Part shown: positions 1,639-33,153 of the stretch, one piece after another
Layout: every line of letters starts with the position of its first letter
Numbering within the stretch: the stretch's first letter is position 1
Assembly: GCA_015501595.1 (NCBI GenBank)
Contig: JADNRX010000188.1
Span: forward strand, 1 to 64,000
Direction: 5' to 3'
Origin: Hymenopellis radicata
Lineage: Eukaryota > Basidiomycota > Agaricomycetes > Agaricales > Physalacriaceae
Length of the DNA stretch: 64,000 nt
Position numbers and translations under genes: made by a program
The notes under the pieces: generated by a model
Databases searched by the model: none
The model's input: only the letters and a program-made list of their open reading frames with translations
What the model was told of the DNA's origin: nothing

Positions 1639-4490
1639 GATTTCCTCTATGGTGCAGAAGATCCCTTGCTCTGGCCTCAAGAAAATGAGCCCAGCGCCCC
1701 ATATCTTCCATGTCTTCTTCGTATTTTTCCTCGCGACGGATCCGTCGATGATAAGCTCGCTTTCCTATGGGATTCTCCATCGCAGAGTCAGCACTTCGTG
1801 GAGGATGCCTCCTTTCGCCGCAGTTGTGGGCACGCCACGTCGGGACTCAGTCGAGATCTGGAGGCCTGCCTCTCTTGCCTTGAGGCGATGTTCTCCTGCG
1901 TTAGTTTTGATAGTCTTGCGCCCATCACGTATGTGAAGGATATTTTGGAGGTTTCGCTCCAACGCCCATTGTTCCGCCTTTGTAGGAGGGCCCGAGACGT
2001 GGAATGGGGAAGATCAAAGCCCTCACTTCGTACATAAAGCACAATCAGGGTTCTTTTGTCAGTCCGTTGACTTATGCGCTGAGTGGTGCAGCTCGTCCTC
2101 AAATTGGGTTACCGGCTAGAGACCTCAACGAGTCCATCACGAGTCAGACTCGCGACTCGTGACGCGAGTACTCACTCAAAAAGAAGTCCAGTTCAGACTC
2201 GCGTCGGACTCGACTCGCGATGACTCACGAGTCATCGCGAGTCCACTCGCGAGTACTCACCATGAGTCCGAGTCATCTCGGATACTCACGAGTACTCGCG
2301 AGTCCATACGCCCCCAAGTATTCATGCGCAGCGACCATCCCCGGGCAATGGCACGGGGACAGTCAGCTGGGCATGAGGGTATGGTGGGGGTGATGGTGGA
2401 AGGATGGTGGGGGTGGGGGTGGAAGGATAGTGGTGGTGGAGGATGGTCGTGGTGGTGGTGGTCGACTCCGAACGACTCGTCGTCGCGTCCATCTCGCGTC
2501 ATCCGCCTCATCGCATCGCATCCCCCTCCTCATCGCATCATCATCGTGTCGTCGTCGTCATCATCCTCATTCTCATCCATCGTCGGCACCGCGATCCAGT
2601 TGGTGTCGGCAATCGGTGATTGGATCGTGTGCTGCCCGTTTGCGGGGCTTACGCGTCCTATCGACGCCGACTCAAAGTCGAGCGTCGGTCATGTCGGCGC
2701 CGACTTGAAGTCGAGCGCCGATAGCGTCGTCGCCGACCTGAAGTCGAGCAACGAGTGTCCGTAGGTAGTCCAGTGGTGCTCCAGCTCTGCTGCTAGCGCA
2801 GAGCCAGCAGCAGCAGGCCCGGCACAAAGCCGAGGCCAAAGACACACCCCACAGGCTGCCTGACAATCGTCAGAGCAGCGGGGGCGACAATCGTCGCTTC
2901 CCAGGTGGTCGTGGTGGTGGTTACAAGAGAGAGAAACCACCCGATCAGACGCTTACGCGTCGCTTCGGATCTCGGGCCGGATCGCCGGATCAGGCGAAAT
3001 AGTCGCGCATGGCTCGTTTGAGCGACGCAAGGGCCCGTTTGACTTGCAAAAAATTTGTAAATTCAACTAAAATATATCTCTAAATATTTGCGAGTCACCG
3101 TGTGATGATTCGCGGTCGACAGACCGAAACTCAGACTCGCGACCAGACTCGTGACTCCGTGACTCGCGAGTCACGCAAGTGCGAACGCCGACGTGCCCGA
3201 CGCGAGTTGAGTCACCAGATGACTCGGTGACTCGGTGACTCGTTGAGGTCTCTATTACCGGCTGCCTCGTCTTTCTCTCGTTCTACTGTACGCCCTCCCG
3301 GTCGTGGCCCACAGAGTGAGTTTTCAGTTATCGGTGTTAATTGAATTCTTCTGACATATTAATTAGCAAAAGTTCTCGTTTATCCCGAACATGAATTGTT
3401 GCCTCGTATTTTCACCACTTGGCAGAGTGTCGTTGCCAAAATTGACGAGTCGTACGATCTCGCATTGTGCGTGGAGAAGTCGCTGGAGCGGTATTTCCTT
3501 CCCCGCCCAGATTTATTCACCAACGTCAATTCGCACCCCAAACTCTTCGAATATCTGGTTTCCTGGCTGCGCATTCACGGCATTGTGCTCAGCTGCATGG
3601 GACATGGTCAGCCGCAGGCTATCTCCCACAAAGTGTGGCGCTTATGGTTAGATCGTCGCGATTTGGTGGTGACGGTGATGGAAGGTGGAACGAATGCGCC
3701 GAGGAAGATGAAGGACAAAGAGGAGGTGATGGCATTGCTTGCTGTCGCGAGGGAGCACAGTTCAGTGGAGCTGCCGGACGAGGGCAAGTGGAAGGGGAGA
3801 ATCTTTCGTTCTGATGGGCTACTTGCAGAACGCCATAGCCGCGAGATCCTCTGGGAGGTGAATGAGTTGGCATTTTGTTGTGAATTGGCTGCTTTGGATG
3901 AGCGCCTTTCTACCCTTTCTTCTGCTCGTGAGCGCTACAACCGTGTACGGCGCTGCTTCCCAATTGGCCTCGCACCTCTGCATTTCGCCGATTTGGGACA
4001 AGCAAATCATGGCTTGGCGCATCCCGACTGGTTTTCGCGAGCCCCGTTCGTGTACGCTCTTCGCCATGTTATGCAATTTTGGAAGCTGGATGTCGTTCAC
4101 GCGGCCAGGTGGTTAACCGACGAGCAGTACTTCAAGATCGACGAGAAGCGGGGATTAACAGAGGCCAATCTTGATGATGTTGAGCACAAGCTCATCAAGA
4201 TCTATATCTCTTCATTCCTCGCAGTGTACGGCCGGACTCCTCGCCTTCCAATGATTCTTTCGCACCATCCGCACACTGAGTGGAAGCAGCCGGTTTACCA
4301 TAGGATGGCAGTTGGGCCGAACGGGATCTGGATGCCGGAACGCGAGTCGGACAGTTTGTATGATTACTGGGTATCTTGTGGCTACAGTTTGGACGCATTT
4401 TCGTGTATTGTTTCGTCTTGTGAATCCGCGCGCGCCATTGTACTTTTATTTGTATTTTTTTATTGCATTGCTGCACTTTTTTTTTGTTGA
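1639..4490 (+). pseudogene. Gene X copy 1, unrecognised basidiomycete-type protein, broken
   Basis: I do not recognise this family. The exons are clear because gene X copy 2 on the opposite strand (9214-5762) matches them in order. The shared marks are YGAEDPLLWPQ against YGPEDPILFPQ, FVEDASFRR against WVEDLTFRR, an ARP/LPxAS linker, DLGQANHGLAHPDW against DLGQANQGLADPDW, and RTPRLPMIL against RPPRLPMNL near the C-terminus. The longest open exon runs 3396-4490 and follows an intron of about 50 nt (GTGAGT near 3316 to TTAGCAAAAG). The start is not defined. Element F1a (2117-3254) interrupts the coding sequence; removing it with one TSD restores the linker. The last ~40 hydrophobic residues have no counterpart in copy 2 and are probably read-through. 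Confidence 0.55.
2117..3254. mobile_element. Non-autonomous hAT element F1a
   Basis: A 1138-bp element with terminal inverted repeats TAGAGACCTCAACGAGTC and GACTCGTTGAGGTCTCTA, and an 8-bp TSD TTACCGGC at 2109-2116 and 3255-3262. Subterminal zones are crowded with GACTCG/CGAGTC, the usual place for hAT transposase binding. Internal modules are a 22-bp palindrome (2338-2359), a GGGGCTTACGCG block (2644-2655), a dual TGAC-N4-GTCA palindrome (2861-2896) and a GGCTCGTTTGAGCGACG tail (from 3010). It is nearly identical to F1c at 16333-17471, so the family moved recently. Confidence 0.92.
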
Positions 4491-5473
4491 GCAGTTTTGG
4501 AAGGGGGAGGGGCCTTGGGCCGATTAGTTTCCCTAATTTCAAGTGAGCGTAGCTAAGCTGCTACAAGGTCAGTCCATCTTGATCTGACTTGGGAATTTGG
4601 AGAGGGCTCCCATTCGAGCCCCCCCCATGCCTCTCCCTGCGCAAGTTTTTGGGCGAGTAAACTCGCCAAGTTTGTCTTCACCAACTAGGAACTTGTAACT
4701 TGTTTCCGACCCGAGTAGGGTAAACCTGAGTTTTTTTTTTTACCCAGGTAGGCAAGTAGCTGGATCGCAGGTATGTCACGAGTACCTGCCTACTCGCAAA
4801 CTCGTGGTATGCTCTACTAAGAAGTGAGTCTTTAACAGCTGTACTGCTTCTGTTAACAGCTTCAGAGTTTTTGACATCTCCTTTGATGGACACCTAGCTT
4901 ATTAGCTGTGCTGTTGATTGATGGCTGATACAGCTTATTAGGGAGCTTCAGGGCCCATTAGAGTGGTCGCTTTCTTGCCCTCTTACCCTCATCATCTCTG
5001 CATCTTTGAGGTCTGCAGCATTGTCCCTCCATTCCTTTGACTTGGACTCACTTCTTGCTAGTCTTTACAGTGCATCTCTTGCCCTAGGAGCTTCGCTCTT
5101 TTAATCTCTGTCTCTGCAAAGCTGTGAGTCTGCTGTGATCACTGTCTGCTGCCTAATCTCAAGATACATATAGTTTCTTGTTAGATCTATCAGATCTGAA
5201 GCCTGTGCATCACACTAGGAGTCCTGTGTGTATTAAGTGTGCTCTTATGCTCTGATGAGTCCAGATCTTATCTAATCTGATGCTGTGTACTGTTAGCTTC
5301 GCTATTTTTCGCTCTATCTCTGTGTCATCACTGTTCCTCTGCCACCATCATTCTCTATCCTTCACTCCATGTCCACTCATGCCTCTACTATGTTCTCAGA
5401 TCCTTTGAATGGGTTCCAGTGCACTCAGACCCCTTCCTCTTCGCGTCATTCTTCTCTCGAGGTTGATTCCTCA
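4491..5473. other. No gene seen; possible transposon-end debris
   Basis: About 1 kb with no supported gene. Motifs such as GAGTACCTGCCTACTCGC near 4770-4795 resemble the subterminal repeats of the local hAT elements, so part of it is probably an old element end. Confidence 0.4.
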
Positions 5474-5655
5474 TAAAGATCTCAATGAGTTGGTGGATCA
5501 CGCGGATATATCCATACTCGATCCGCTTGGGCATCTCGGAGATCCGATCTGTATGATCCGTAGATCCGTGGCAGGTCGGATCACAAATGGATCGCAGATC
5601 GGGCATTGGGAGCGTGAGTACTCGTCGCGAGTACTCGCGTTGATTTGCGTGAAAT
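5474..5655. mobile_element. F1-type hAT terminal fragment
   Basis: This stretch aligns with the first ~180 bp of F1b and F1e: a decayed TIR (AAGATCTCAATGAG), a CATCTCGGAGATCCGATC block, a GATCCGTAGA/GGCAGGTCGGATCAC block and GAGTACTCG repeats. No opposite end or TSD is present, so it is a truncated relic. Confidence 0.7.
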
Positions 5656-5962
5656 CAGACCACAGAGCACAAAAAAAATTACAAATTTTATGAAGTACAT
5701 AGAGCAAAAAAAAAGTCCGAAAGTCCTGAATAGTACATATATGTAGTCCACAGCCTAATTACTACAACCTTGGTACCCATCTATCTGCCTTTCCACGCTG
5801 ATTGAAATATACCGGTGGCACCCATGACATCTGTGGTTGGAATGGAAGGTTCATCGGAAGGCGAGGAGGGCGACTGAACACCTGGAAGAAGTTCCCGATA
5901 TAGTGTGCGAAGATGGTGGCCGTGAACGCTTCCATTTCCTCCCGTGTGAACCCCGTCTTGCC

Positions 5963-7248
5963 TAGAGCAAGGCACGAGTGTATACCCGGGTGCACCCGAC
6001 ACCCGTCCGGCAAATACTTGCGTCCGAGAAGCCGGACTTGCCACCTGCCAGTACACCCGGGTACCCACAAGTACTTGACCCGCGGGTCAAGTACTTGGCA
6101 AGTACTTGCCTCGCAGGTGTGCAAGTACTTGTTAAAAGTACTTGCATCTTGTGAGCATTTTCGTGCCCGCCGACGACCCCCGAGCAATTGCGCGGGGGCT
6201 CTCGACGTGCACGATACACTTGTCTGAAGCCCCGGTTACTTGCATGAGCAAGAACCGCAGCCAAACGAAGTGTAGTAGGGGATGGTGTGGGGTGGGAGAG
6301 AGGGCAAGGAGAAAAGAGACAGCACGGGGTGAGACGATGGGGCAAAAAAAATAGGCAACCTGTAACGGTGTAAGAAAAACAAATAGAGCAGTGAATACAC
6401 ACCGTTGGGCAATGTCGCATCCACGACGCCATCGGGATAGCGCTGTCAACACAGACGAGCGCGAAAAGCCGCCAGTCGCGCTAGTGGCGATGCGAGCTGC
6501 CGTACATCATGGGTGTCATCCTGGGCGTGGCGGGTGTCGTCCTGACCGTGTGCCGTGCTGGTCATAGACGTTGTCGTCCTGGTCGCTGTCGCGAAAATCA
6601 CCCCGGAATGTATCCGAGGGCGGCTGGGCCGGCGCACAGTCAGACCCAGCGGAGAAAATGTCGTCCTGTCGTATTGCGGCCTCCGTGAGGGCTTACGCTG
6701 TCCGTGCTCGCTCCAGACGGCGTCGTCGCGCAGACAAACGCAAGAAATCGCCCGGATCGAATCCATGGGCGGCGGCGGGCGGCGCGAAGCCAAACCGCAG
6801 GAGAAAAGCCAAGGAAAATAAGTACAAGATGGTGAACAAGCCCCAGAAAATTTTCTGGGGCCGACGAACACAACGCGAACGTTGTGCTGTGGTGGAAGGA
6901 AGCAGAGTGCGAAGATCAGACCCGATCGATCCTTATCCGGCACTTGCCGGGATCTTCGGCGATCTCGGTCTCGGCAAGAAATTCCCGCGAACGTCGTTTC
7001 TCAACGACGTTGGGCTCATTTGAGCCCCAATAAATTCGTAAAAATCATTAAAAATATAATTGACCATTGAGGCAAGTATTAGGCAAGTACTTGCCCCAAA
7101 TACTTGCCGCGCCAACCCCGTACTTGCCACCTGTGCACCATCCGGGTGTTGGCAAGTGCCGGGTGGGCAGGTGCCGGGTGCGGCACCACCCGGGTGATGC
7201 CGATACTTGCGAATACTTGCAAGTACTTACCACTCGTGCCTTGCTCTA
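5963..7248. mobile_element. Non-autonomous hAT element F2
   Basis: A 1286-bp element with terminal repeats TAGAGCAAGGCACGAGTG and CACTCGTGCCTTGCTCTA, flanked by the 8-bp TSD GTCTTGCC at 5955-5962 and 7249-7256. Subterminal CAAGTACTTG repeats are dense at both ends. Its ends are unrelated to F1, yet it carries the same internal modules: palindrome P at 6177-6198, the TTGCGGCCTC...GGGCTTACGC block at 6675-6700, GGCGCGAAGCC near 6780, a second palindrome GCCCCAGAA-N4-TTCTGGGGC at 6840-6861, and the tail block at 6991-7026. It has no transposase ORF. Confidence 0.92.
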
Positions 7249-8616
7249 GTCTTGCCAAACTGCACATCAGAATCCGGTGCAGGATACGGTGACGAAATGC
7301 GCCACAAGTCCATAACCTTCTTCAGCGCATACACGAACTGGGCCCGACTTCACCAATCCGGGTCTGCAAGTCCTTGATTTGCCTGACCGAGATCAACCAG
7401 ACCGAGAGGCGCATCACCAAGGGGGAAACAAAGAGACACGGCCTGCATGAACTTCCGGCTGTCCACATGCTCGGAACGGCACAGGTGAAGGCACAAGGAA
7501 GCCAACTCCATTTGAAACGCGAGCTCATTCGCCTCCCACACAATCTCCAAAACATCATGTTTCCCGTTCTCGGTTGTTGTCGATGTCAAGGGCTGCCCAT
7601 TCCACATCCTAACCTCCAGCAACTCAACCGTCATCTCCGTCTCTGCTGCCGTCACCAGCTTGTCAACCTCTTCCTTCCAAGCCTGATGCCGCCACCCATG
7701 GCAACTCATATCCTTGACATCAGGCAACCGCACCACGCATGCATTGATCCACTCCCGCCACGCCTGATGCGACATGACGTGCGGGGAGTTCGACTGAGCC
7801 ACACCAATCGCAACAGGCCGTATCCTCAGCCACTTCTGGAGCATTTCCAGTGATTTCGCCGGCTGCCCAGTTTTTCAGAACAGGCATAGCTCTCCTCGTC
7901 AATCGATTCGGCAGCGGCGAGCCAGGCGGGAGAGATTGGCGGAAGAAGAGCGTGAACCGGATAAACGAGTTTTTTCGTCACTGGTTGAATTCAATCAGTT
8001 TAAATAGATCAAAGAACAAGAAGAAAAACATACCGGTATTGCCCTTGCCCTTGCCTTTGGCGTGTGAGGCAGTAGGACGAGTCGAAGTCGAAGCACTGGG
8101 AAGAGGAACGGTCGGGCGGGCAACAGCGAAGAAAGGCATAGTTATGGGAGAGCGAAAGTTGCCTTGACTCCTCTCCGCCGCCCTTCGTAGACAGGTATAC
8201 TTTGCATTCAACGAGGCATCTCCCTCCCACAAGACATCGGGAAATTGTGGACAGATTGCTGTCACGGTGCTATACCGGGGATCCCTGAGAGTACGCAGTT
8301 CATCCACGCGTACGCTCCCAAGATCTTCGGTAGGGCGAATAAGCCAGACTGGCACACCAACACGCATGTATAGATTCACGAGGGCAAGGTCGTAAGTGAT
8401 GCACCCCATGAAATTGTCGTGTAAGTCGGGTTTTTTCGGTAAGGAGGGAGGTTATGCCATATCTTGCAGGCTCGACGATGGTGTGATAGGCGTATATCGC
8501 GAGGAGCTCTAGGGCAGTGCGCTGGTAGTCGCGGAGGAGTAGGGAGAAGCGGCCAAATGGTTGATGAAGAAAACGAAGATTGGCGAATATGAGAGATAGT
8601 TTGGCGGCCTCGGTAT

Positions 8617-8718
8617 TGTAGATAGCCATGATACCAGCATTAAGGCTGTCAGTTTCAAAACAGTTCCTGTAGATAGCCATGATACCAGCATTAAGGCTGT
8701 CAGTTTCAAAACAGTTCC
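8617..8718 (-). repeat. In-frame 51-bp tandem duplication in gene X copy 2
   Basis: Two head-to-tail copies of a 51-bp unit (8617-8667 and 8668-8718). It duplicates 17 residues (RNCFETDSLNAGIMAIY) without changing frame. The copies are identical, so the event is recent. Confidence 0.9.
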
Positions 8719-9214
8719 GATGGTAGGTGAAACCGGAGACCAATCTAGAAGAGAAGATAGTGCTCGCCCGCCCGAATCCTCGTCGAAATGTCAAGTCCTC
8801 CACCCAATCGATTACGGGCATTGGATCCACCCAAAGCGAGTCAAGCTCACTGCCAAGATCAGAGGTAGGGCGACACCTCAAGATACAAGGCAGATGAGGA
8901 GCGTCATAAACCGCCATTTGAGGGAAGAGTATAGGATCTTCGGGACCATAGCGAAAGTCGGCGCGCCGTTGTACAATCTGGTTTGCCGCGCGAGGCGGGA
9001 GAGGAAGCCAAGAGGCATTCGGTGTTGTGATGATGGCTGGGGCGTGGGGCAGAATGGCTCCATAGCGGCCATCGAGAGTGGTGATTGCTATGGCGTATAT
9101 TAGTAAATGTTGCTGGGTGAACGCGAAACACCACTTACGTTCAGATGGCGCAGACCGTGCAATCAATAGCTCCAGATTAGCCAAAAGATCGGTGTGGTAG
9201 CCCATATCTACCAA

Positions 9215-15064: not shown

Positions 15065-16097
15065 TAGAGACCTCAACGAGTCAACGGATCACACGGGTTT
15101 ACCCATACTCAATCTGCTCGGGCATCTCGGAGATCCGATCCGTTTGATCCGTAGACCCGTAGCGGGTCGGATCGCACATGGATCGCGGATCAGCCTCTGG
15201 AGGCGCGAGTACTCGTGTTGACTCGTGAAAATGTTGGTATATATTTAAAGTTAATTTACAAATTTTTAGTAAGTTAAACAGGGTCTTGCGTGCCCCAAAC
15301 GAGGCATGCGCGATAATTTCTCGCGATCCGGCGTTCCGGACCGAGATCCGAAGCGACGCGTAAGCGTTGGATCGATGACTCGATCTCTTTGCTCACCACC
15401 ACCACCACCACCCAGGGCATGACGACTGTCATCCCTGCCGCTCTGACGATTGTCAGGCGGCCTCTGGGGTGGAGATTCAGGCTTTGGCTATGTGCTGAGC
15501 CTGCTGCTGCTGTCTCTGCGACGGCAGCAGCAACTTCCGCGACCAGGACGACTTCCGCGACGAGGACGACTTCTGGACTACGGTCACGATGACCTGATGA
15601 CGACGACGATGCAGCGATGGCGGGGATGGAGAGAATGTGGTGAGGATGCGGGGAATGCAGCAAGGATGTGGCGAGAATGCGGCCACGTCGCGATAAAGAC
15701 GTTGACCTCGACTTGGACGACGACGACCGCCGCCGCCGCCACCACCACCACTCTCTGGACGGCAACGACTACCACCACCACTGCCGTAGCAACCACCACC
15801 ACCATACCACCACTCCCACTCTCACCTCCACCACCCTCAGTCTGCATCATGCACGACTGAGTGTCCCCGTGCCATTGCCCGGGGATACTCGTCGGGCATG
15901 AATAGATTTGGGTGCATCCGATACTTGAGTTTACTCGAGTACTCGATCCGCTCGGTGATCTCGGCGATCCGACTCGTCTTGATCCGTAATCCGTGGCGGG
16001 TCGGATCAGATAAGGATCGCGGATCGGCAGTTTGGGCCACGGGTACTCGCGTGACGGATCGCGGATCTGACCCGGATTTGAGTCGTTGAGGTCTCTA
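15065..16097. mobile_element. Non-autonomous hAT element F1b
   Basis: 1033 bp, F1 terminal repeats, 8-bp TSD CTCCCCGT at 15057-15064 and 16098-16105. Internal modules lie in reverse order relative to F1a: CGCGTAAGCG at 15357, dual palindrome at 15420-15455, palindrome P at 15864-15885. The middle is a CAC/GAC triplet-rich tract. It sits in a transposase exon. Confidence 0.92.
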
Positions 16098-16332: not shown

Positions 16333-17471
16333 TAGAGACCTCAACGAGTCCATCACGAGTCAGATTCGCGACTCGTGACGCGAGTACTCACTCAAAAAGA
16401 AGTCCAGTTCAGACTCACGTCGGACTCGACTCGCGATGACTCATGAGTCATCGCGAGTCCACTCGCGAGTACTCACCATGAGTCCGAGTCATCTCGGATA
16501 CTCACGAGTACTCTCGAGTTCATACACCCCCAAGTATTCATGCGCAGCGAGCATCCCCGGGCAATGGCACGGGGACAGTCAGCTGGGCATGAGGGTATGG
16601 TGGGGGTGATGGTGGAAGGATGGTGGGGGTGGGGGTGGAAGGATAGTGGTGGTGGAGGATGGTCGTGGTGGTGGTGGTCGACTCCGAACGACTCGTCGTC
16701 GCGTCCATCTCGCGTCATCCGCCTCATCGCATCGCATCCCCCTCCTCATCGCATCATCATCGTGTCGTCGTCGTCGTCATCCTCATTCTCATCCATCGTC
16801 GGCACCGCAATCCAGTTGGTGTCGGCAATCCGGTGATTGGATCGTGTGCTGCCCGTTTGCGGGGCTTACGCGTCCTATCGATGCCGACTCAAAGTCGAGC
16901 GTCGGTCATGTCGGCGCCGACTTGAAGTCGAGCGCCGATAGCATCGTCGCCGACCTGAAGTCGAGCAACGAGTGTCCGTAGGTAGTCCAGTGGTGCTCCA
17001 GCTCTGCTGCTAGCGCAGAGCCAGCAGCAGCAGGCCCGGCACAAAGCCGAGGCCAAAGACACACCCCACAGGCTGCCTGACAATCGTCAGAGCAGCGGGG
17101 GCGACAATCGTCGCTTCCCAGGTGGTCGTGGTGGTGGTTACAAGAGAGAGAAACCACCCGATCAGACGCTTACGCGTCGCTTCGGATCTCGGGCCGGATC
17201 GCCGGATCAGGCGAAATAGTCGCGCATGGCTCGTTTGAGCGACGCAAGGGCCCGTTTGACTTGCAAAAAATTTGTAAATTCAACTAAAATATATCTCTAA
17301 ATATTTGCGAGTCACCGTGTGATGACTCGCGGTCGACAGACCGAAACTCAGACTCGCGACCAGACTCATGACTCCGTGACTCGCGAGTCACGCGAGTGCG
17401 AACGCCGACGTGCCCGACGCGAGTCGAGTCACCAGATGACTCGGTGACTCGGTGACTCGTTGAGGTCTCTA
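16333..17471. mobile_element. Non-autonomous hAT element F1c
   Basis: 1139 bp, 8-bp TSD GTCTGGGA at 16325-16332 and 17472-17479. Nearly identical to F1a. Palindrome P at 16554-16575, GGGGCTTACGCG at 16861-16872, dual palindrome at 17078-17113. Confidence 0.93.
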
Positions 17472-17693: not shown

Positions 17694-18702
17694 TAGAGAC
17701 CTCAATGAGTCAGATCCGGGTCTGACTCGCGATCCGAGTGGCGAGTACTTGAGGCCGGAAGAGGCTACTCGTGATCCGTATTTTACTCGACCCGCGTTGA
17801 CTCGCCAGTCATACGGGTCGAGTACTTGCGAGTCTGGTGAGTACTTGCAGGCGATCCGGATCACTGACGAGTCAAAAAATACTCGCACATCACCTCACAT
17901 ACACTCACCCGACCAAAGGTCCATTCATGCCTGGCGAGCATCCCCGGGCAATTGCACGGGGACACTCAGCTGTGCATGAAGCAGAGACTGAGGGTGGAGG
18001 TGGTGGTGGAGGTGGTGCAGTGGAGGTGGGAGTGGTGGTGGTGTAGTGGTGCTGGTCATCGTCATTACGCGTCGCCGTTCTCGCGCATACTCCTCCTCCT
18101 ATTCTCCGTCCTCGTCATCCTCTCATCCTCATCATCCTGCTCCTCATCCTGTCATCCTCCGCTTGTCGTCTGTATCGTCGTCGTCGTCGCGTCGCGTCGT
18201 TGCAATCCTGGCAACATCATCCTCTGCTGCTGTCATAAAGACAGCAGCAGCGGGCCCGGCACAAACCCGAGACCCAGATCTACACCACAGATGCCGCCTG
18301 ACAGTTGTCAGAGCGGCAGGGGCGACAATTGTCGCTCCCTTGGTAGTTGTAGTGGTGGTTAGAAGCAAGAGAAACGACCCGATCGCACGCTTACGCGGCC
18401 TCTCAGCGTCTGCCGGATCGTGGGAATTCCCCAAAAAATCACGCGAACGTCTCGTTTGGGCGACACAAGAGCCCATTTAAGTTACAAAAAATTTGTAAAT
18501 ATAGCTTAAATATATATCTATATAATTGCGAGTCAAACCGAGTACTCGCGACGAGTACTCGTGCCGCAAAAGCCGTACTCGCGATCCTTCTCTGATCCGA
18601 CCCGCTATTGATCCGCAGATCAAACCGGTCGAGTAACCGAGACCCCCGGCCGGATCGAGTACCCAAGTATCCACGTGACCCGCGAACTCGTTGAGGTCTC
18701 TA
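17694..18702. mobile_element. Non-autonomous hAT element F1d
   Basis: 1009 bp, 8-bp TSD ACTTGCGT at 17686-17693 and 18703-18710. Palindrome P at 17941-17962, dual palindrome at 18299-18334, GCTTACGCG at 18389. More diverged from F1a than F1c is. Confidence 0.92.
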
Positions 18703-20721: not shown

Positions 20722-20935
20722 TAGCGTTTGAAAGTCAGGTTAGGTTAGGTCTTTTGACCTTACCTACCATGACCGTTGACCGCGCCCCCTGACCGGTGAC
20801 CATAACCGCAGTCTAACTGTAATCGGTGCTTAACTGCAGTTTTTAGACCGGTTAGTGACCGGTCTGACTAGTGTACGGTCAGACCGGTCACTAACTGCTG
20901 ATAACCGGTTGTGACTGCCCTAACCGTGCAAAAGT
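20722..20935. mobile_element. hAT element with TIR TAGCGTTTGAAAGTCAGG, left part
   Basis: Begins TAGCGTTTGAAAGTCAGG directly after TSD TCCATCTC. The next 200 bp are dense in GACCGGT/ACCGGTC subterminal repeats, including an inverted pair around 20850-20900. Its partner end is at 31540-31745. Confidence 0.75.
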
Positions 20936-22740
20936 ACTCATCATGGCTCGAGTCCAGAGGTACTCACCAATGTGAGTATACCATTTTACTAGACGAAGTT
21001 CAATTGCACTAAGGCTTCATTAAATGTATATACATGTGTACAACTACAATAGGAATGCAGATATTTTGAGCCGGCGCGGGATGCACAATGATGCTACCCG
21101 CATACCGACTACAAAAAATTAGCGCGGGGGGGATGCGGACTTGCGTAGCCCGATATCCGAAAGGTATCGCGAACAAGGACAGAGAGGTGACATGGCTGAA
21201 GGAGATGAGCGAGCACAACTGCAGCGGAATAGAAGCCTGCACGGCATAAAAATGAAAAGTGTGAAGAAATACGCACCGGTCCGGGCTGGATGCGTCCGCG
21301 ACGCCATCCAGCCCGACTCCCAAATCTACTCACTCGGCGGAGTCGTCCTCACAGCTGCGAGAAAGACATTCTCCATCATCGTTCATCATTTGCTGCCCAT
21401 TTGGGGGGCCCAAAGGCATCACCCATCGCAGCATAGCCTCTTGCAGGCCGTCGTTGTTGTCATTGGTCGTCTGCTGCCCTTTCGAGGGGCTTACACGTCG
21501 ATGTTGGCCCGTTGCTAGGGTGTGCTGGCCCTAACAACGGCCTTCGAGTCGTCCTAGCGGGGCATACAGCATCTCCAGCAGGTGCCGAGATTGAAATGCG
21601 CACCTTTGTGACGCCGCCTGTCAGCAGACAGCGCGGCGTCGCGTTCCCGAGTCCACCAGGGGTCCATCAATATTGTCAAGGAATTGCGGCCTCGTTGGAG
21701 GGCTTACGCATCCAGCGGGGCCGCCGGGGCTCTTCAAGCCCGCAAACAGAGTCAAATCGCAGGGAGACGACGTAAAGTCGGTCTCCACGACGTTTGAGCG
21801 ACGACTCAGAGTCGGTCGCGAGAGAGGTAGTAGTGGTTAGAAGAGAAGAGAGCGACGCCGAACAGTGTTCGATCACTGTCCGGTTGTCCGGATCGGACAT
21901 CCGATCGTCAACGGAATGAGCTCGTCGACGCTCGGGACAGTGACGACAGGCTCAGAGTCATGATTAAAGCGTCGGAATCCAATGCAGGATATGTATATCA
22001 GATATAGCAATAAAATATTTGGTACTTCTACTGCATGTAGATATAGAACTGAGCATACATAGATAGTATACCCTTGAATTAGCTAGAGATCACGCACTCC
22101 AGCGCGCTACACCACGACAGACAGCCAGATTTTCTGTTACATATACACTAAATAGTCCCTTACATGAATGTCAACTACGTCCCAGGGACTCAGCTGGATA
22201 CACACATTGTAGTTGCTGAGATGATTCACCGGACATTGTACTAGACTCAGATCCTAGTCAACAGTCTCAAAAATTTGACCCAAAAATAAAAGACTCTTAA
22301 ATACTCCATGAACACATCCTGCCATATTTTGGAGCTTCAAACGTCTCTGTTATCGTGCTGGAGCACGATGAACCCGCCAAAAATCACCCGGTCCGATCAT
22401 CCGAGTGGTGATCAAGACACTTTTTTGTGCTCGATCTCACCGTCTAACCACCACCATCTCGCGACGCCTGGACTCCGACGACTCAACCAGGGGACGCGGG
22501 TCTTCCAGGCGTCGTTCTCCTTCGTTCTATCTCCTTTTACCGCTTTTTTCAAGAATTTGCGGGCTTGAAAAGCCCCGCAGAACGCGTAAGCCCTCCAACG
22601 AGGCCGCAAATCTTCAACAACAATGATGGTGGCCCCGACGACGCTCTAGAGAACATGGTTCTCCGACGCCGTGCTGTCTGCTGACAGGCGGCGTCGTTAA
22701 GGTGCGTATTTTTCACTGTACTTGAATACTGAGATATCCT
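20936..22740. mobile_element. Decayed element pair with inverted core blocks (F4)
   Basis: No gene. Two related ~150-200-bp blocks face each other: 21581-21765 (GACGCCGCCTGTCAGCAGACAG, TTGCGGCCTCGTTGGAGGGC, TTACGC, TTCAAGCCCGCAAA) and the reverse complement of about 22545-22710. GCTTACGC-type motifs occur at 21489, 21702 and 22584 (reverse), the same block found inside F1, F2 and F3. Terminal repeats and TSD are not identified. Confidence 0.5.
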
Positions 22741-23116
22741 TAAATCCAGGACCACAGCGCTGCAACGACAACGACCGCATGACAACGACGACCGCGCCAT
22801 ATCGACAGCGGTGTTGCGCCTCTATTACAATGGCGGCATCTCAATGACGATGGCGTCGCCTCAAAGACGATGACCCAGTGCCACAACTTCTCTCACCACC
22901 CGACAACGACGACCACCACACGACACCAATGACATCACCATGACGACGGTGACTCAACCCCACGCCCACAACCGCGACACCGCCGCGATTACGCTGACGA
23001 CCCCAGCACTAAGGCAGCACACCATTGACCCACCCAACCACAATCCTACGTGACGATGATTACGGGACCACGACGCCGACGCCGGGACCATGATGTAGAC
23101 AACGATACCTCCCCAC
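22741..23116. other. CGACAACGAC-rich low-complexity tract
   Basis: Imperfect triplet-like repeats of CGACAACGACGACC type. ORFs across it are repetitive and unconvincing. No gene seen. Confidence 0.5.
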
Positions 23117-23381: not shown

Positions 23382-24478
23382 GGAGTTAGGCCAAATCGGA
23401 CCCCAAGGGCCTCATCAATTAAGCGTATCGTAAAGTGCCTTACAGTACATGGTAGATAATACATGAAATGTAGTTACTGTAATTACAGTGGGAGAGGTGG
23501 GAGGGGACGCAAAAAAGCGGAGCTAACTGTGACCAGATAACACAGATTAGCTGGAGGGGAGTGAGACAGTGCAGAGAGCGCACCTGTGACCAGATAGCCC
23601 ACAGAAGTGTCCTTGATAAGGAGTCCTTGAAAAGGAATGGGTATCTGGGCACAAAAGGCATCAGCTCTGAAGAGCTGGATATGAGACATTGGCACATACT
23701 GGAAGCAGAGGGAGCAGGAAGAGCTGTAGGGCTCTGGGGCTGTGGCAAATGGTTCCAATAGACTTCTAGGATGCCAATGCATCAGTCCTGAGCAAGAGGA
23801 CTGGGTAGAGCAAGTGCTGCTTGCCTGGGAGAGCAAAAGTGTGAATTTCCCACAAATTGGACACTTTGGGCCTGTCTGGACTGGTTTTGGGGCTGGCTAG
23901 GCAGCTTCAGACAGTGCTCTAGAGGGGTATGGCATCAGTCCTGAGCAGGAGGACTGGAGGGATCACGAACTGCTTGCCTCTGGGAGAAGGTGATGGTAAG
24001 AGGCAGAAGGCAGAGCGTGGGAACTTTTGCCTAAACCTTCTAGGGCGCCCTGTGAGTGGCCTCTGTTGTTACTACAACACCAGACACAGGCTAGACAAGT
24101 CTAGGAAGAGCTCAGAGGATGGAGTAGCTGCAGTAGTAGTAGCAGAGAGTCAGCATTTAGTCAAACAATGCAGATTTTTGACTAAATGATGATTTGACTC
24201 AGTTTGACTCGGTTAAGCCAACTGAGTGGAAGGGAGTTAGGTATAGGGGTATGGAGAGGTGTGGGGCATGCAGAGGCCTCTGAAAATGCTCCCTACCCTT
24301 GGAATCCGCATTTACATCGACCTATGCTTTCAGATCACACGGAGTTAGGCCAAATCGGACCCCAAGGGCCTCATCAATTAAGCGTATCGTAAAGTGCCTA
24401 CTGTGCTATGCATGTGTGTAGTGGAGGGGTGGATGGAGGTGAAGAAAGATGTTTACGAAACGCAAGATGAGGAAGGTT

Positions 24479-25483
24479 TTAATAGGAGGATTTCTTTTGA
24501 GCTGCTAACTGCTGAGCGGCACGCACTGCTGGATGGTCGCGTATATAGATCTTCCAAGCAGATGATGACCAACGACCTAAGGCTTGAAGAATAGATTCAG
24601 CCAGTCCCAGAGATGCGTAGTGTGTTATGCCTCCAGAACGGACTGAATGACCACCAAACTCTTTACTCACCAGCGCAAAGAATTTGGATTCAAACCAGGA
24701 TCGAGTTGGTACCACGCCGTTGTCACGTATGAAGAGTGCCGCTCGAGCACCATGCAGCTTATCTCTGCGCAAGACATACCGTTTCAGAAGAGCAATTGGA
24801 TCAGCCTCTTTCTGAGTAGTAAACAGTATATCAGTGCCCTGATAGAATGGATCGCTTTTATGATAAGGCAAGCGATAGCCAGCGTATCCAGGTTCAAATT
24901 TGAGACTGGATCGCTTGATGATCTTCTTCCAATCACGAAGTTTCTTCTGATTAGGCTGCACCAGTTCTCCCATTCGGTGAACAGCATAGAAGGCACATGA
25001 CATGATGGTGGCAAAAAGAAGATCATCGTACTTCTGAGTCTGATTTGCGATATTGACAAAGAGTTGAAGGTGATGGATGCGAAGTGGAGGTTTCCTATGT
25101 ATAGGATCCGCTCTCACCTTCTTAGCACCTCGGATAGTAGCTTGGACGAGTGCAGATGCACGAGCGTCAGCAAAGTGAGGATAGAACTCTTTGAGGAAAT
25201 GTTTCGCGCCAGACAAGTATTTTGGAGCAGAAGCAATGAATTGTGATGTGTACGCAATGTAACGAGATAAGGTCTCCGGAGTAGGATCCAAAGACAGGTT
25301 ATGTGTTTTACAGAAGTGAGCGTAATCTCTGGCACCAGTAGAGTAATTAAGACGTGTAGAAGTCTCAATAGCATGAGCCTGCAAGTATAAGACAAGTTCA
25401 TCTAATTTCTGCAAGTCCATGGATGGGCGAGGGGGACGAGTGCGTCTCCCCTCACCCAATGCCTCTAAAAGCAATCTCTCCAT
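24479..25483 (-). CDS. Tyrosine recombinase (YR) of Ngaro copy A
   Basis: 334 residues, intact. It would integrate the circular DNA copy of the retrotransposon by site-specific recombination in the nucleus, in place of a DDE integrase. Catalytic set visible: Arg170 in HRMGEL, His279 and Arg282 in GGHSVRSGG, Trp305 in the sixth position and nucleophile Tyr313 in WKIYIR. The N-terminal ~120 residues form the core-binding part. Its ATG lies 19 nt inside the end of the RT/RNase H ORF, suggesting translation by reinitiation. The protein is identical or nearly so in copies B and C. Confidence 0.88.
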   Translation of the reverse strand: MERLLLEALGEGRRTRPPRPSMDLQKLDELVLYLQAHAIETSTRLNYSTGARDYAHFCKTHNLSLDPTPETLSRYIAYTSQFIASAPKYLSGAKHFLKEFYPHFADARASALVQATIRGAKKVRADPIHRKPPLRIHHLQLFVNIANQTQKYDDLLFATIMSCAFYAVHRMGELVQPNQKKLRDWKKIIKRSSLKFEPGYAGYRLPYHKSDPFYQGTDILFTTQKEADPIALLKRYVLRRDKLHGARAALFIRDNGVVPTRSWFESKFFALVSKEFGGHSVRSGGITHYASLGLAESILQALGRWSSSAWKIYIRDHPAVRAAQQLAAQKKSSY

Positions 25484-27037
25484 CGCACCGGCAGGAGCTC
25501 TCGAGGTGGCTCCATAATGCGGATGCGGTAGGAGGGAAACTGTTTCTGGAAGTCAGAGAACAGCAAGCGGGACAACATGTCTGCCATCACATTGTCAACC
25601 CCGCGGATGTGCCTCACACGTACGTCAATGCCTGTACGCATGACAATGTCTGCAATAGCAAGGAGGATAGCATTGTGACTTGACTGAGAAGCAGCCAGAG
25701 TGTCGAACACTGAGACGGAGTCGAGGCTGTCGGAATGAATCAACAGCGTACGAGGTGGATAGGGACGAGAGGCGGCATGATGGACAGCACATAAGATAGC
25801 TAACAGCTCTCTGAAGAAGGTATCAACTCCGGTTGTAGTTCGGAGTCGATAGCAAAAGCCATTTCCAGCGTATACAAAGGAAAGGCCCAGATTGCTAGCA
25901 TCTGTCCAACAGACCATATCGGCCTCTGTATCGTCTGATGGAGTCTGGAGTGAGGGAAATGGAGCCGTAGATGGCATCAAGCCAGAAACCAATAATCTTC
26001 AGCTGACGACCGTGCTCTTGCTTCTTGTCCTCATAGGGAATGCCAAGAGAGTCCCACAAGAGAAGAAGCTGGACTTGACGATGTGGACGTCGCTGTCCAT
26101 GAAAGAGTACTAGATTGCGACTGGTGTCCCAGCCATAGTAGTCGTCCATGTAGTCGTGCAAGCCGAGTACGTCAAGTTCCCAAGCGATCCAGTTAACCAG
26201 ACCGGAGAACGAGCACCAGCAGTATGGAGATGCACGACTTCCAAAGATGAGACGGCGCACAATATAATAGCGACCGTCAACGATGACAACCTGCTGCAGT
26301 TGCCAGATGGGATGAACAGGGAGATTGAGGAATGCCTTCGAGATGTCACTCTTGAAGAGCAGGATTTCCTCGTAAGGGTGAGTTTGAAGGACGTCATGCA
26401 GTACCTGCCCAAAGGAGTGCATGTCGTCGTACTTCACTTTTGCATCCTCTCTCGCAATGCCCTCATTAAGACCATTGCCAGTATGGTCCATGACGACACG
26501 TGATTTACCTTTCTGCCACACCACGAACATGGGTGACAGGCGCATACCAGGAAGGAGCTTAAAGCCCTCTGGAAGCGCAGGTGACCAGCGACCAGCAGCG
26601 ACTTCTTGATCACGGTGTTTGCGCAGCTCAGTGAGATCGCGCTCCTCAGTAGAGTAATTGTCTTTGATCTGCTCTTTGAGGTGCGCTTCCCACTCACCGT
26701 CATGCAATGACCAAAACCCTTCACGAAGCGAACGAGTAATAGACTTCACAAAGGGTTGATTGGGATGATTGGCCAGAAGTCGCTCAAAGCGGTCAACATT
26801 GATTGGTGTGCTGACCTCGATATAGTTGGCAACGGCAGCAAGAGACTGCTGAATGGTAGGATCGTTGCGAATATGTTCAGGAGGTAAAGGAAGTGGAGGA
26901 GCAGTAAAAGTGGAAGAAATGCTCGGAGGAGCTTTTGATTGTGATGGTACATTCGTAGTAAATACATAGCCACGCTTAAAGCGTGGAGGTGGTGGTACAG
27001 CATCGGATTTAAGCTTCAACGATTTAGGCTTCGACAT
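25465..27037 (-). pseudogene. RT/RNase H polyprotein (ORF2) of Ngaro copy A, frameshifted
   Basis: ORF2 starts with ATG at 27037, inside the last codons of gag (14-nt overlap). It carries a basic/proline-rich lead, then RT motifs LLFKSDISKAF (catalytic Asp), YMDD in LHDYMDDYYG, and, after the break, RNase H with CWTDASN, FRELLAI, HSDSLDS and VMADMLSR. A 269-bp deletion near 25939 (compare copy D) removes about 90 residues of RT connection and shifts the frame, so RT and RNase H cannot be made as one protein. Confidence 0.85.
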
Positions 27038-28398
27038 TGCCGCCTGAACTCGGTCCTGCACGACTGACAGCTCGCTTGGCTTCGAGGAGGACGAGGCAGG
27101 CTGGGTGGCTTTTGGCGGTGTGCTTTCCTCCGCACTCACTGCAAGTACCGTGTACACGGCTACCCGGGCACGGAGATGGGCATTTGCCCAGATTCCAATT
27201 CTGGCAGATGACACGACGACGTGTCGCAGGCTGCGAGCTGCTAGAATCAGAAGACCGCTTGCGTGGATTAGCCGCCTCAGAGGTGCGTAACATCTCTGTA
27301 AGAAGCGGTAACTGGAGTGCATTGCGGTCATTGAGATTGAAAGGAGAGTTAGCATAGCGAGTGCGAGTCTCCTTATCACAGCGAATAGGGAACGCTGGAT
27401 TCGAGGGCGTGGCGCGGAATAGTTCCACAATGAGTACGCGATAGCCCTGGAGTTCGTCCTTGCGGTGAGGGTAGATAAGCCCAACACCGGTGGCATACGC
27501 ATCAAAGACGCGTGTCCACTCGGACTCTTGAGTGAGAGCTCGGCGCGCAGAGACGTGGTCCTTGCGGATGAGCACAAAGCCCCCAGCAAAGTCCTTCGTG
27601 TCCTCTTGCTGATTCGTGCCAGAGTGGATCGAGGCATAGAGTTTCTCAAAATCCACGTACTGGTCCAGCACGATTGAGCGCCAGAGAGAGCGTGCAAACG
27701 GGTCGTGGAGTGACTGCGTCTGACACACATTGATGATAGCGTCGACATCCTTATCATTGGTAAAGAGCCGACGGAGACGCTGAGTCTCTTGGAGGTGTGG
27801 AGAGAGGTTGGTTGGTGAGGCCAACTGCGCGAGATGCGGAGCGGAGGAGAGGACTGAGGCAGAGATGCCTGACGGAGTAGGCTCCGCTCCAAGTAATTTG
27901 GAGAGCAGCGCAGCCGAGGTCGGTCCAGCGACGGGACCAGGCTCGGGCGCACGCTTTCCAGCAGCTGCATCGAGACGCGCACCAAGCGCGGCCCATGCAG
28001 CCTCCTCAACAGCGCGCTTAAGCGCAGCTTGTTGCTCAGCTTGCTGCGCTGCAAGGTCTGGATCAGGAGGAGCCGATCCGTCGTGGTGCTCCTCTCGAGC
28101 AGCAATGATCTGAACGACTTGTTCGACATAGTCGTCCAGTTCTCCGGCTGAGGCACCAGTCTCCCGAGCGAGTCGCAGGAACTCGTTGTAGGACGGTATG
28201 GTACCATCAGCAAAGTCTGCAACGAGCTGCTCCAGTTGCTCTGCACGTTGACGAACCTCTTCGCGGTGATCCGCATCGGATTCGTCTGCAACAGAGTGTG
28301 TAGCGGTACGTAGTGGAGAGGGAGAGGGAGCGACGTAGGAGCGTGTCGCAGAGCGGGAGCGAGAGGGAGATAACATTGAGATCATCGTCCGAGGACAT
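27024..28398 (-). pseudogene. Gag of Ngaro copy A, N-terminal frameshift
   Basis: About 455 residues with a coiled-coil-prone region near residues 60-140 and a C-terminal Cys/His cluster (CQNWNLGKCPSPC ... CSECGGKHTAKSH) typical of RNA-binding Gag of this class. The usual start MSSDDDLNVI at 28398 is thrown out of frame by a 14-bp deletion present also in copy B. Translation could begin at the in-frame ATG at 28385, changing only the first residues. Confidence 0.75.
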
Positions 28399-29699
28399 AG
28401 TCCGCTTCCTGATTCAGGAACGTTCTCAGCAGAATGTGCAACCTAAGGCTGTCTGCGCAGGCTTCTCGCCCTCTTGCTGCCTTTTGGCTAGTCTACTCCT
28501 CAGAACGCAAATGCTCTCGCAGAGAGAACACCCAGGTAATGAGCGAATAGAGAGCGCCTGAACAAGATGTACGACCGATCCTTAACCAAGCCTATCGAAC
28601 ACTCAACGAGCGAACGTGTTACGGCGCACTCGGAGAGCGAACTCGTCTCACAATCAGCGCCCTGATTTACACTCCTTGTGAGGGAGTCAGGCACACGCTG
28701 TACGACCAGGTGTTGAACTCGGTCGCAAGCACAGGTTGAGCTGTACCACTGATTGACGATGACAAGGAAGTACAAGGAGGACACCGAGCCCAGGGAGGTA
28801 TAGCACGCTGAACGGAGTATTGAGCTCGAAGAAGCGGTGGTGAGCCGCTTGAGAGAGGGATGTGGGGTGAAACCGCAAAGAAAAGACGCAAAAAAGCGGA
28901 GCTAACTGTGACCAGATAACACAGATTAGCTGGAGGGGAGTGAGACAGTGCAGAGAGCGCACCTGTGACCAGATAGCCCACAGAAGTGTCCTTGATAAGG
29001 AGTCCTTGAAAAGGAATGGGTATCTGGGCACAAAAGGCATCAGCTCTGAAGAGCTGGATATGAGACATTGGCACATACTGGAAGCAGAGGGAGCAGGAAG
29101 AGCTGTAGGGCTCTGGGGCTGTGGCAAATGGTTCCAATAGACTTCTAGGATGCCAATGCATCAGTCCTGAGCAAGAGGACTGGGTAGAGCAAGTGCTGCT
29201 TGCCTGGGAGAGCAAAAGTGTGAATTTCCCACAAATTGGACACTTTGGGCCTGTCTGGACTGGTTTTGGGGCTGGCTAGGCAGCTTCAGACAGTGCTCTA
29301 GAGGGGTATGGCATCAGTCCTGAGCAGGAGGACTGGAGGGATCACGAACTGCTTGCCTCTGGGAGAAGGTGATGGTAAGAGGCAGAAGGCAGAGCGTGGG
29401 AACTTTTGCCTAAACCTTCTAGGGCGCCCTGTGAGTGGCCTCTGTTGTTACTACAACACCAGACACAGGCTAGACAAGTCTAGGAAGAGCTCAGAGGATG
29501 GAGTAGCTGCAGTAGTAGTAGCAGAGAGTCAGCATTTAGTCAAACAATGCAGATTTTTGACTAAATGATGATTTGACTCGGTTTGACTCGGTTAAGCCAA
29601 CTGAGTGGAAGGGAGTTAGGTATAGGGGTATGGAGAGGTGTGGGGCATGCAGAGGCCTCTGAAAATGCTCCCTACCCTTGGAATCCGCATTTACATCGA

Positions 29700-31539
29700 T
29701 CCTTGCAACGCTTAGGACTACTGTTCAAGCGCTCTTTCAGACTACGCTTAGCAGAAGTAGAGGAGGTTGATGAAGCTGAGAAAGAAGAGGAAGCTGAACA
29801 GCATTTTGGCTGTCCAACCTGAAAGGTGTCTGGTCATAGTGCAGACGTGTCTCTCAATCAATCTGAATAGGTACAGGAGATGTGCTAATAATAGCACGAA
29901 AAAAGTCCACAATAGCCTATTTATAGCTTTGCAGCTCAGACTGGGGATGAGGGTAAATAAGAATAACACCCTCATACCAAGCATTAAAGACACGACTCCA
30001 GTCAGATTCAGACTGAAGCATGCGACGAGCTGAGTAAGTATCCTTCTTAACCAAAAGATAACTCCCAGCTAGTGAGTAGCACGGGTCGGGTATGGGTGCT
30101 CGTGAGCGCTCCCGCCCCGAACCCGGTGCAATACCCGTACCCGAAGCGTTGGGTACAGGTTACCCGTTATTTCGCCCGTGGGTCTCAAACGGGGCAGGTA
30201 CCCCGATACCCGCTTAGTTTTTGAATGATTCGTGCCCACCGCCGACCCCCAAGCAATTGCGCGGGGGTTAGCGACGTGCACGAGACACATTGGCAAGGCC
30301 CCGGCTACTTGCGAGAGCAAGAACCGCAGCTCAACCAAGTGCAGGTGGGGGCAAGGCAGGAAATGATGGTGAGGGAATGAGGAGAGAGGAGACCGTGAGC
30401 GTGAGCATACGGTGGGTGCTAGCAGACGGTGGACGTGAGGCAGGTGACGACAGGGCGAGGGTGGAAGGATACGTACAGTAACATACTGTCTTGAGCTGGA
30501 AGCGCGACGCCCTCCAGCCCATACTCTAACTCCTGGGCGCATTAGTGTGGCGCCTTGGTGCCCGCACTGCACCGCGTTTCCTTATTGAAATGACGGCGTG
30601 AGCCGTTGCGGTAAGCACACCGTCGCGAAGACAGAGTGCTGAACGTCCCATCCTGAAAAGTATTGCGCGATTAGCGGCGAAGCGCTGCCATCCAGACCAT
30701 CCAGCCATCATGCCGCCTCGTCCAGAGGGCTTATGCATCTCGGATCCTTGTGTAAATCGTGCCGTCGCGCAGACGAGCACGATATGCGCCCCGAACTGTA
30801 TTCGACGGCGCAGCGGCCGGCGCGAAGCCGAGCCGCACCAGAAAAGCAAGAAAACAGAAAGCACAGAAGTAGGACAAGCCCCAGAACTTGTTCTGGGGCC
30901 GACGAGCACAACGATAATGTCGTGCTGTGGTGGTTCAAGGCAGAGAGATGTGATCGCAACTGTGCGATCAATATCCGGCATTTGCTGGACAGCTCGGCTA
31001 ATACCGCCGAGCCAGAAGATTAAGCGCAACATTGTTTCTAAACGACGTTGGCCTCATTTGAGGTTAAGTAAATTCACATAAATTGTTTAGAATATGCATA
31101 TTAATGATAGTTGAGTATATGGCCAATACTTATTGCAAGAAACCATTGTGCCAATCTCTAGCACGGGTGGACACGGGTTGCCAGGTTCCCGACGGGTACT
31201 CGGACCGGCACCCGACCCCTACCCAACGCATAACTCGACCCGCACCCGGACCGGGTGACCCGTACCCGTGCTTTTCACTACTCCCAGCAAAAGTCTGCAA
31301 GTCATCATAATGGTTAACTATCTCAGATAAAGAAGTAAAAAGCTTCTCAAAATCGATATATCGGTCTTGTATAATAAGACGCCAGAACGATCGAGCAAAG
31401 GGGTCTTTGATCTGGCATGCTTGCAAGAGCTTGACAAGGAGGTTGACATCCTTCTCAGCGGCCAAAGCACGGCGAAGCTCAATCGTCTGTTGAACATGTT
31501 GGTCAAGAGAGGATGGAGAGCTAAGGTGTGCGAGATGGA
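29700..31539 (-). pseudogene. gag2, C-terminal half, interrupted by hAT F3
   Basis: On the minus strand from 31539: IELRRALAAEKDVNLLVKLL against RLRRLFTNDKDVDAIINV of the main Gag, then KDPFARSFWRLIIQDRYIDF against HDPFARSLWRSIVLDQYVDF. After F3 (30070-31280) it resumes with LLVKKDTYSARRML and IYPHPQSELQSY. Stops occur after that point and the zinc cluster is lost. Its first bases give the TSD GAGATGGA (31532-31539), reverse complement of that at 20714, so both halves come from one gene. Confidence 0.75.
30070..31280. mobile_element. Non-autonomous hAT element F3
   Basis: 1211 bp, ends TAGTGAGTAGCACGGGT and ACCCGTGCTTTTCACTA, 8-bp TSD CTCCCAGC at 30062-30069 and 31281-31288. Ends are unlike F1 or F2, but the interior shares palindrome P (30246-30267), the GGGCTTATGC block (30727-30736), GGCGCGAAGCCGAGCC near 30820, GCCCCAGAA-N4-TTCTGGGGC (30878-30899) and the tail block (31030-31063). 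Confidence 0.92.
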
Positions 31540-33140: not shown

Positions 33141-33153
33141 ATGTCCTCGGACG

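Follow-up and report, generated by a model that had tools for sequence, protein, structure and literature searches.

Can transposable elements with different ends share one and the same middle? The question is raised by a 64,000-nucleotide stretch of the genome of the basidiomycete Hymenopellis radicata (GenBank assembly GCA_015501595.1, contig JADNRX010000188.1, positions 1 to 64,000; hereafter the window, part of contig C505 in a genome of 75.5 Mb), in which three kinds of short hAT-type element, F1, F2 and F3, differ in their termini. An earlier note on this DNA had proposed that such elements, with unrelated ends and different transposases, carry one ordered internal core. We found a shared core with F1, F2 and F3 ends, as that note had claimed. 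The reading that we favour on comparison of the sequences, with a confidence a little above even, is that one hairpin-built core sits between several end sets, that it has likely moved between ends and that its fold has likely been selected.

In the window, F1 (2117-3254, + strand; terminal inverted repeat (TIR) TAGAGACCTCAACGAG, target-site duplication (TSD) TTACCGGC), F2 (5963-7248, +; TIR TAGAGCAAGGCACGAG, TSD GTCTTGCC) and F3 (30070-31280, +; TIR TAGTGAGTAGCACGGG, TSD CTCCCAGC) each have an intact TIR and a perfect 8-bp TSD. Four further F1 copies lie at 15065-16097 (-; TSD CTCCCCGT), 16333-17471 (+; TSD GTCTGGGA; 98.6% identical to 2117-3254), 17694-18702 (+; TSD ACTTGCGT) and 55903-56952 (-; TSD GTCCCGAC). 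The 8-bp TSD was present in 6/6 F1 and 8/10 F3 copies examined, and F2 TIRs with perfect TSDs occur at 15 of the 18 F2-core places outside the window as well as in the window copy. The elements are 1.0-1.3 kb long. The short TIRs of hAT elements follow the consensus YARNG; the termini of F1, F2 and F3 start with TAGnG, and a further end type, X (TAGACCTGGGCANGAGTG), starts with TAGAC, a misfit at base 5. A Pfam search of eight open reading frames (ORFs) from the window F1, F2 and F3 revealed no transposase family, the weak matches below the cut-off being Adipogenin (E = 0.021) and CobD_Cbib (E = 0.075). The longest ATG-initiated ORF per copy ranges from 88 to 235 amino acids and varies in strand, frame and place. 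A protein-coding core is not supported, since the eight ORFs had no credible Pfam match and ORFs were inconsistent between copies. F1, F2 and F3 are predicted to be non-autonomous hAT-type transposons. The subterminal motif along both F1 arms is of the GACTCGCGAGTC type in 2117-3254 and of the GGATCCG type in 15065-16097 and 55903-56952, with the TIR kept, as if the arm repeats change in concert within copies or subfamilies. Two nested insertions were also seen: an X element abuts an F2 right end (L044, 5419-6488), and F2 ends lie between two F1 ends (G000, C458:31999-35609).

By BLAST, F2 and F3 align directly in one segment of 339 bp (71%) and another of 123 bp (83%). A first comparison of F1 with F2 or F3 gave no BLAST match at E 0.01; the diverged F1 copy at 17694 gave matches of 39-44 bases to F2/F3 (E about 8e-4). 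Covariance models R1-R3, trained on F2/F3 rows alone and yielding rough E-values, detected hairpin P in each of the five F1 copies of the window (E on the better strand from 5e-7 to 1.1e-4), and R1 also detected it in X elements (L024 and L044) and in an F1 element at L039. P and a second hairpin lie at 6159-6277 (-) in F2 and at 30228-30346 (-) in F3, both members of the R1 training set. In the F1 copies, P lies at 2322-2376 (-; E 4.2e-5), 15812-15903 (+; E 5.3e-7), 17923-18022 (-; E 5.2e-5) and 56668-56758 (+; E 5.7e-7), and, in copy 16333, at 16538-16592 on an undecided strand, the unexpected one scoring slightly better (E 1.1e-4 on + and 2.6e-4 on -). Because P is nearly palindromic, the strand call of the model is weak; the expected strand scored better in 4/5 window F1 copies and 1/2 X copies.

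The H1-H3 block of the core was detected in two of the five window F1 copies (2650, E 0.0018; 16867, E 0.00056) and in F4, a related stretch with hairpin units at 20722-22760 (+) (block at 21683, E 0.064). The left border of F4 is inferred, and its right end was looked for and not found. H2 lies at 6720-6741 (+) in F2 and 30759-30780 (+) in F3, and in F1 at 2664-2718 (+) as two tandem units 33 bp apart, with copy 16333 carrying units at 16881 and 16914. H3, which in F1 is the GGC(G/A)C(G/A)AAGCC block, lies at 2816-2837 (+; a second at 17033) and, in F3, at 30814-30835 (+). F4 has two units of the H2-like kind, 34 bp apart, at 21764-21819 (+). Upstream of the main H1-H3 match in F2 we note two weaker ones (6416-6494, E 0.014; 6507-6651, E 0.0003), which may reflect duplication of the block inside the F2 core. 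The tail, a palindrome, a CTCATTTGAG hairpin and an AT-rich stretch, lies at 6979-7051 (+) in F2, 31017-31089 (+) in F3 and 2997-3069 (+) in F1, with others at 17214-17286, 18436-18498 and 56107-56180 (-). It was thus detected in 4/5 window F1 copies, with individually weak scores (E 0.15-0.95 each), and these, besides those in F2/F3, are the sole matches at E of 1 or below in the 64 kb. The tail and the H1-H3 block score less well than P and stand in the same order as in F2/F3; P, block and tail were therefore found in order in F1, F2 and F3, and the ordered core described earlier holds. The F2/F3 tail match, put at about 26 of 28 bases, came to 24/28 once the positions given for it were shifted by one base.

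Genome-wide, a 20-base pattern of P had 491 exact matches and its control none. We examined the placement of P at 99 of the first-listed matches, the exact 20-mer discriminating the strands. At 55 of them P follows an exact left end of F1, F2 or F3 at a distance of 161-236 bp (F1, 208-235 bp at 35 places; F2, 161-236 bp at 15; F3, 178-181 bp at 5), always in one orientation and never reversed. For the other 44 places no exact end of these three families was within range, which indicates that further end types or decayed copies exist.

We then considered the fold of the core, using MAFFT alignments of 21 F2/F3 rows that were built without structure and divided into three blocks, and 500 shuffles that ignore relatedness. 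The covariation score exceeded all 500 shuffles in each of the three blocks and was lower throughout in slid controls. The clearest co-change is in H2, where pair 64-83 is CG in 12 rows, UA in 8 and something else in 1, and pair 66-81 is UA in 12 and CG in 9, with no other combination. Independent CpG decay of both hairpin arms is disfavoured, because intermediates are nearly absent in H2, although shared ancestry reduces the weight of this point. The inner pair of H2 is inverted in F1 (GTC/GAC in F2 and F3, GAC/GTC in F1).

The same kind of hairpin recurs. We scanned for a unit in which an outer stem of four pairs and an inner one of three are separated by C on one side and two purines on the other, and in which A is the last of the five loop bases. 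It turned up at 11 places in the window, every one of them on the element strand of F1, F2, F3 or F4, whereas an order-2 Markov control over 9.9 kb of elements predicts 0.015 such places on that strand and 0.07 on the opposite one; 6 of the 11 come from the two F1 copies that are 98.6% identical. The scan joined two separately listed blocks, as GGC(G/A)C(G/A)AAGCC proved to be the same kind of hairpin as H2. Among 100 distinct, partly related instances of the inner motif, collected from all the DNA analysed, the flanks showed 62% Watson-Crick pairing, compared with 38% when partners were shuffled (1000 shuffles, maximum 44%), and a full outer stem was present in 41, compared with 7.0 after shuffling (maximum 14), in 18 different stems. 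The hairpin form GCCGWCNNNNAGWCGAGC had 634 genome matches and its control 2. Among the first 100 matches listed, the spacing between same-strand neighbours was 33 bp in 24 cases and 66 bp in 8, and opposite ones never occurred within 200 bp; exact P lay upstream on the same strand of 34, 3 were otherwise arranged to P and 63 had no P within 1.3 kb; and 58 had an exact end (X 26, F1 18, F2 7, F3 7) no more than 1.3 kb outward of them, the other 42 not. The unit thus recurs within and between families (F1, F2, F3, F4 and X). As the paired letters of the hairpins change together, the folded shape of the core is likely to have been kept by selection, and the constraint on the middle that had been proposed fits the compensatory change in its hairpins.

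Whether the fold would act as RNA or as DNA was considered from the mismatched cells at paired positions, of which the element strand has 66 G.T and 113 A.C or, counted by pairs, 26 and 36; the cell count would suit an RNA made from the strand opposite the element strand, but the pair count fits RNA and DNA alike. No Rfam family reached its gathering score anywhere in the window, and matches below that score had E of at least 0.099 for F2 and at least 1.8 for four F3 loci.

If the middle is shared, where does the divergence between families fall? When 17 F2 and 7 F3 copies were aligned together, the outermost 40 columns on the left had identities of 0.95 within F2, 0.84 within F3 and 0.44 between them, and those on the right 0.89, 0.93 and 0.39; between-family identity across both arms was 0.26-0.55 per window. 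Core windows were often near-equal in the three comparisons (0.95/0.90/0.92, 0.84/0.83/0.79 and 0.79/0.74/0.73 for F2, F3 and between), some were lower between F2 and F3 (e.g. 0.80/0.64/0.49), and the stretch separating the two core parts was poorly conserved in all. Between F2 and F3, therefore, the internal region is more conserved than the TIRs. The earlier suggestion that ends evolve far faster than the middle fails as a steady process, because within the families the ends (0.84-0.95) are more conserved than the core (0.64-0.95), and only between families do they fall to about 0.4. The pattern looks like strong conservation of ends inside each family and their replacement from one family to another. 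We further noted that an arm repeat of the F2 type, GGCAAGTACTTGCC, occurs just inside the right arm of F3 copies, matching at 14/14 bases in L060 and L067, 13/14 in L063, 12/14 in L059 and L064, and 10/14 in L062 (reached by 2/500 shuffles), so that 6/10 F3 copies are above shuffles at 2/500 or fewer. The simplest reading of this repeat suggests that an F2-like element received F3 ends; alternatively, the repeat may be native to the core and later amplified in the F2 arms.

Exchange would also be expected to leave mosaic cores. In the pairwise homoplasy index (PHI) test, close sites were less incompatible than distant ones at three window sizes (0/500 at each), and remained so when one partner of each predicted pair was removed (0/500, 0/500 and 12/500). 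One hairpin variant is common to an F2 copy, L040, and an F3 copy, L065 (support 97/99), and in a larger core tree, with four rows added, the F2 copy L068 groups with the F3 cores (support 99/97). That segments of the core have recombined is moderately supported by these comparisons. At two places in genome G000 a pair of P hairpins shares a strand at a spacing of 304-305 bp (C258:132248 and 132552; C471:96144 and 96449); in the C258 pair one P is of the F2/F3 type and the other of the F1 type, possibly a hybrid core.

As for the ends themselves, exact or near-exact end patterns are numerous genome-wide: 538 for the exact F1 pattern, 184 for the F2 pattern with close variants, 118 for X and 44 for the strict F3 left end, with none for the backward-pattern control in any case. 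The ends turned out not to be unrelated, as had been supposed. Of the first 16 bases, 10 are equal between F1 and F2, 9 between F1 and F3 and 10 between F2 and F3; across F1, F2, F3, X, Y and transposase-bearing elements every pair has 8-14/16 equal bases, which makes the ends distant relatives. Y is a family of about 410 bp with ends TAGAGCATGCCACGAG (14/16 bases as in the F2 end), seen at L011 1673-2088, L024 2593-3000 and L046 1579-1994, with a single end at 61284 of the window. The F3 ends share 13/16 bases with transposase-bearing elements, compared with 10/16 with F2. In 8 of 30 loci with a hAT dimerisation domain, the domain is followed 556-811 bp downstream by an outward-facing F3-type end (two of the 8 neighbour each other on one contig). 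The L025 end and the left end of L067, a copy that carries the core, are identical across 26 bases. At L043, a 4316-bp element (4186-8501) has a perfect duplication, a PF05699 match and F3-type ends; it shares with F3 just the terminal 70 bp or so by BLAST. For F2, ends 8.6 kb apart span hAT-domain matches on C540, and the flanking 8-mers differ. We considered whether the core is simply a non-coding part of transposase-bearing hATs. This is not supported: model R1 found no P at E 1 in the L043 element or in a 4046-bp hAT element at L046 (3671-7716), and only about 70 bp are shared with F3. Among the 30 hAT-domain loci, R1 found P only in L024, within its X element; as most of these loci span only 1.5 kb on each side, the core could sit farther out.

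Several results weigh against one mobile, folded core. The first whole-core tree split F2 and F3 cleanly by their ends (support 99/98), and with the larger core set a single F3 clade was not rejected (p = 0.21). Of six block tests, uncorrected, two fell below 0.05 (p = 0.008, 0.022, 0.057, 0.065, 0.24 and 0.45). We read any exchanges of core as few or old. Some other covariation measures were not above shuffles, namely the further pair types in A2 (500/500) and, in A3, both the pairs with double changes (232/500) and the further pair types (425/500), and the shuffles take no account of the kinship of the copies. The hairpin unit is present in just two, near-identical, window F1 copies, and the other three have none. 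The GGCAAGTACTTGCC match is weak in L065 (10/14, 16/500 shuffles) and, at 9/14, not above shuffles in the window F3 copy, L061 and L066. Finally, the idea that the families need different transposases has a basis for F3, whose type of end flanks hAT-domain genes and the 4.3-kb hAT element, whereas no transposase-bearing element was established as a partner for the ends of F1, F2 or X.

The main competitor would have a single ancestral non-autonomous hAT, core included, give rise to F1, F2, F3 and X, with ends that tracked changing transposases stepwise and no transfer of the core. The distant kinship of all TIRs (8-14/16 in every pair), the similar offsets of P from the left end and the first core tree are what this history predicts, and we regard it as a possible, if rather unlikely, account. 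It sits poorly with F2 arms that are 0.84-0.95 alike within the family while the core spreads, yet wholesale different from F3 arms, with the F2-type repeat that remains inside F3 right arms, with the mosaic cores indicated by PHI and block trees, and with F3 ends that are nearer to transposase-bearing elements (13/16) than to F2 (10/16). More doubtful still is a mutational origin of the pairing, in which one arm is rewritten to match the other when the template switches between imperfect repeats, and the core has no function. Subterminal repeats likewise change in concert within F1 subfamilies, and the G.T and A.C counts are not clearly one-sided, as expected without RNA; arm correction, however, would tend to erase the C opposite two purines and the loop-final A, which persist across 18 outer stems, and the hairpins recur across families in fixed order. 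That the block matches reflect chance or base composition is scarcely credible, even though the elements have 56-59% guanine plus cytosine compared with 51% for the window and F1 has no common BLAST match with F2/F3. The matches are well above the chance level that would have undone the original proposal: backward controls are far lower (491 vs 0 and 634 vs 2), with no equally high control found, the hairpin scan gave 11 places vs 0.015 expected, and the place and orientation of P are fixed relative to the ends.

We therefore return to the reading of one hairpin-built core between several end sets, for which we can propose a mechanism. The hAT transposase of each end family would mobilise its elements; repair after excision, or ectopic recombination, could then switch template inside the homologous core, and such switching would yield mosaic cores and, occasionally, new ends on an old core. 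Our leading guess is that a transcript of the core, or its hairpins as extruded DNA, aids the mobilisation or copying of the element. A bolder version, to which we attach only limited credence, treats the core itself as selfish: a structured module that lives as a satellite of transposons and encodes a multi-hairpin RNA or forms hairpins as DNA. Its tandem units, in which C faces two purines, would bind a host or transposase factor, and it would survive by re-ending itself with the termini of whichever hAT family is active, the module rather than the transposon then being the unit of descent.

Some other features of the window lie outside these questions. Two arms of 6089 nt (23611-29699 and 31840-37928) form an inverted repeat with 100% complementarity, and F3 lies inside its 2140-nt spacer; two ORFs tested from the first arm had no Pfam match. 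A further short hAT-like element of 562 bp (1067-1628; ends TAGGGTGACGCAGTAAACC, TSD GATCCGCC) has relatives at L043 (2916-3477 and 3525-4106). An ORF at 53998-55905 has a collagen-repeat Pfam match (E 5e-10).

Comparable arrangements have been described, as far as the portions consulted of the sources cited here go. In CMITE, coral miniature inverted-repeat transposable elements (MITEs) of the piggyBac type reported in 2010, families that differ in their TIRs have in common an internal region better conserved than those TIRs; its origin was left unexplained, and the authors suspected a role in transposition (PMC2872659). The likeness to F2 and F3 lies in different TIRs around a conserved internal region, and the differences are that CMITEs are piggyBac elements of about 100 bp with TTAA targets and a 75-base middle, whereas ours are hAT elements of 1.0-1.3 kb with a hairpin core, and that the parts of the CMITE account covered describe no fold, covariation or arm remnant (PMC2872659). 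Our elements are CMITE-like in working and not members of that group, because they have 8-bp duplications and not TTAA. In Galileo, a Drosophila transposon of the P superfamily, a single central region occurs with the TIRs of three subfamilies (PMC3573991); template switching during gap repair (PMC4168063) as well as ectopic recombination and conversion (PMC3573991, PMC4168063) have been discussed for it. One middle with several TIR types is what F1, F2 and F3 show too; Galileo, however, comprises subfamilies of one long-TIR transposon, and the passages covered contain no shared hairpin core. A highly conserved domain of short interspersed elements (SINEs) is also carried by the MITE MER6, a DNA transposon, and so is likewise a conserved middle common to non-autonomous elements with differing heads and tails (PMC6887750). 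SINEs are copied through RNA, whereas the carriers here are all hAT-type DNA elements. Maize Ac/Ds1 are hAT elements whose non-autonomous copies have foreign interiors; they combine one end set with several interiors, and here one interior is combined with several end sets. A literature search, with subscription journals largely outside its reach, found no description of a hAT family with a co-changing hairpin core. In the parts of these sources consulted, middles more conserved than ends (coral MITEs) and one middle with several TIR types (Galileo) are already known; our additions are a hAT case, a folded core in which paired bases co-change and one hairpin unit recurs, and an apparent remnant of another family's ends just inside the F3 right arm.

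Overall, the finding means that a non-autonomous transposon can be seen as two parts with separate histories, its ends answering to the transposase and its middle to something else. Repeat libraries that rest on ends only, or on interiors only, would classify these elements conflictingly. A middle of co-changing hairpins with an exact 20-base mark at 491 places in the genome is also a natural data set for asking whether an interior aids the movement of its element, the question left by the coral study in the part consulted (PMC2872659).

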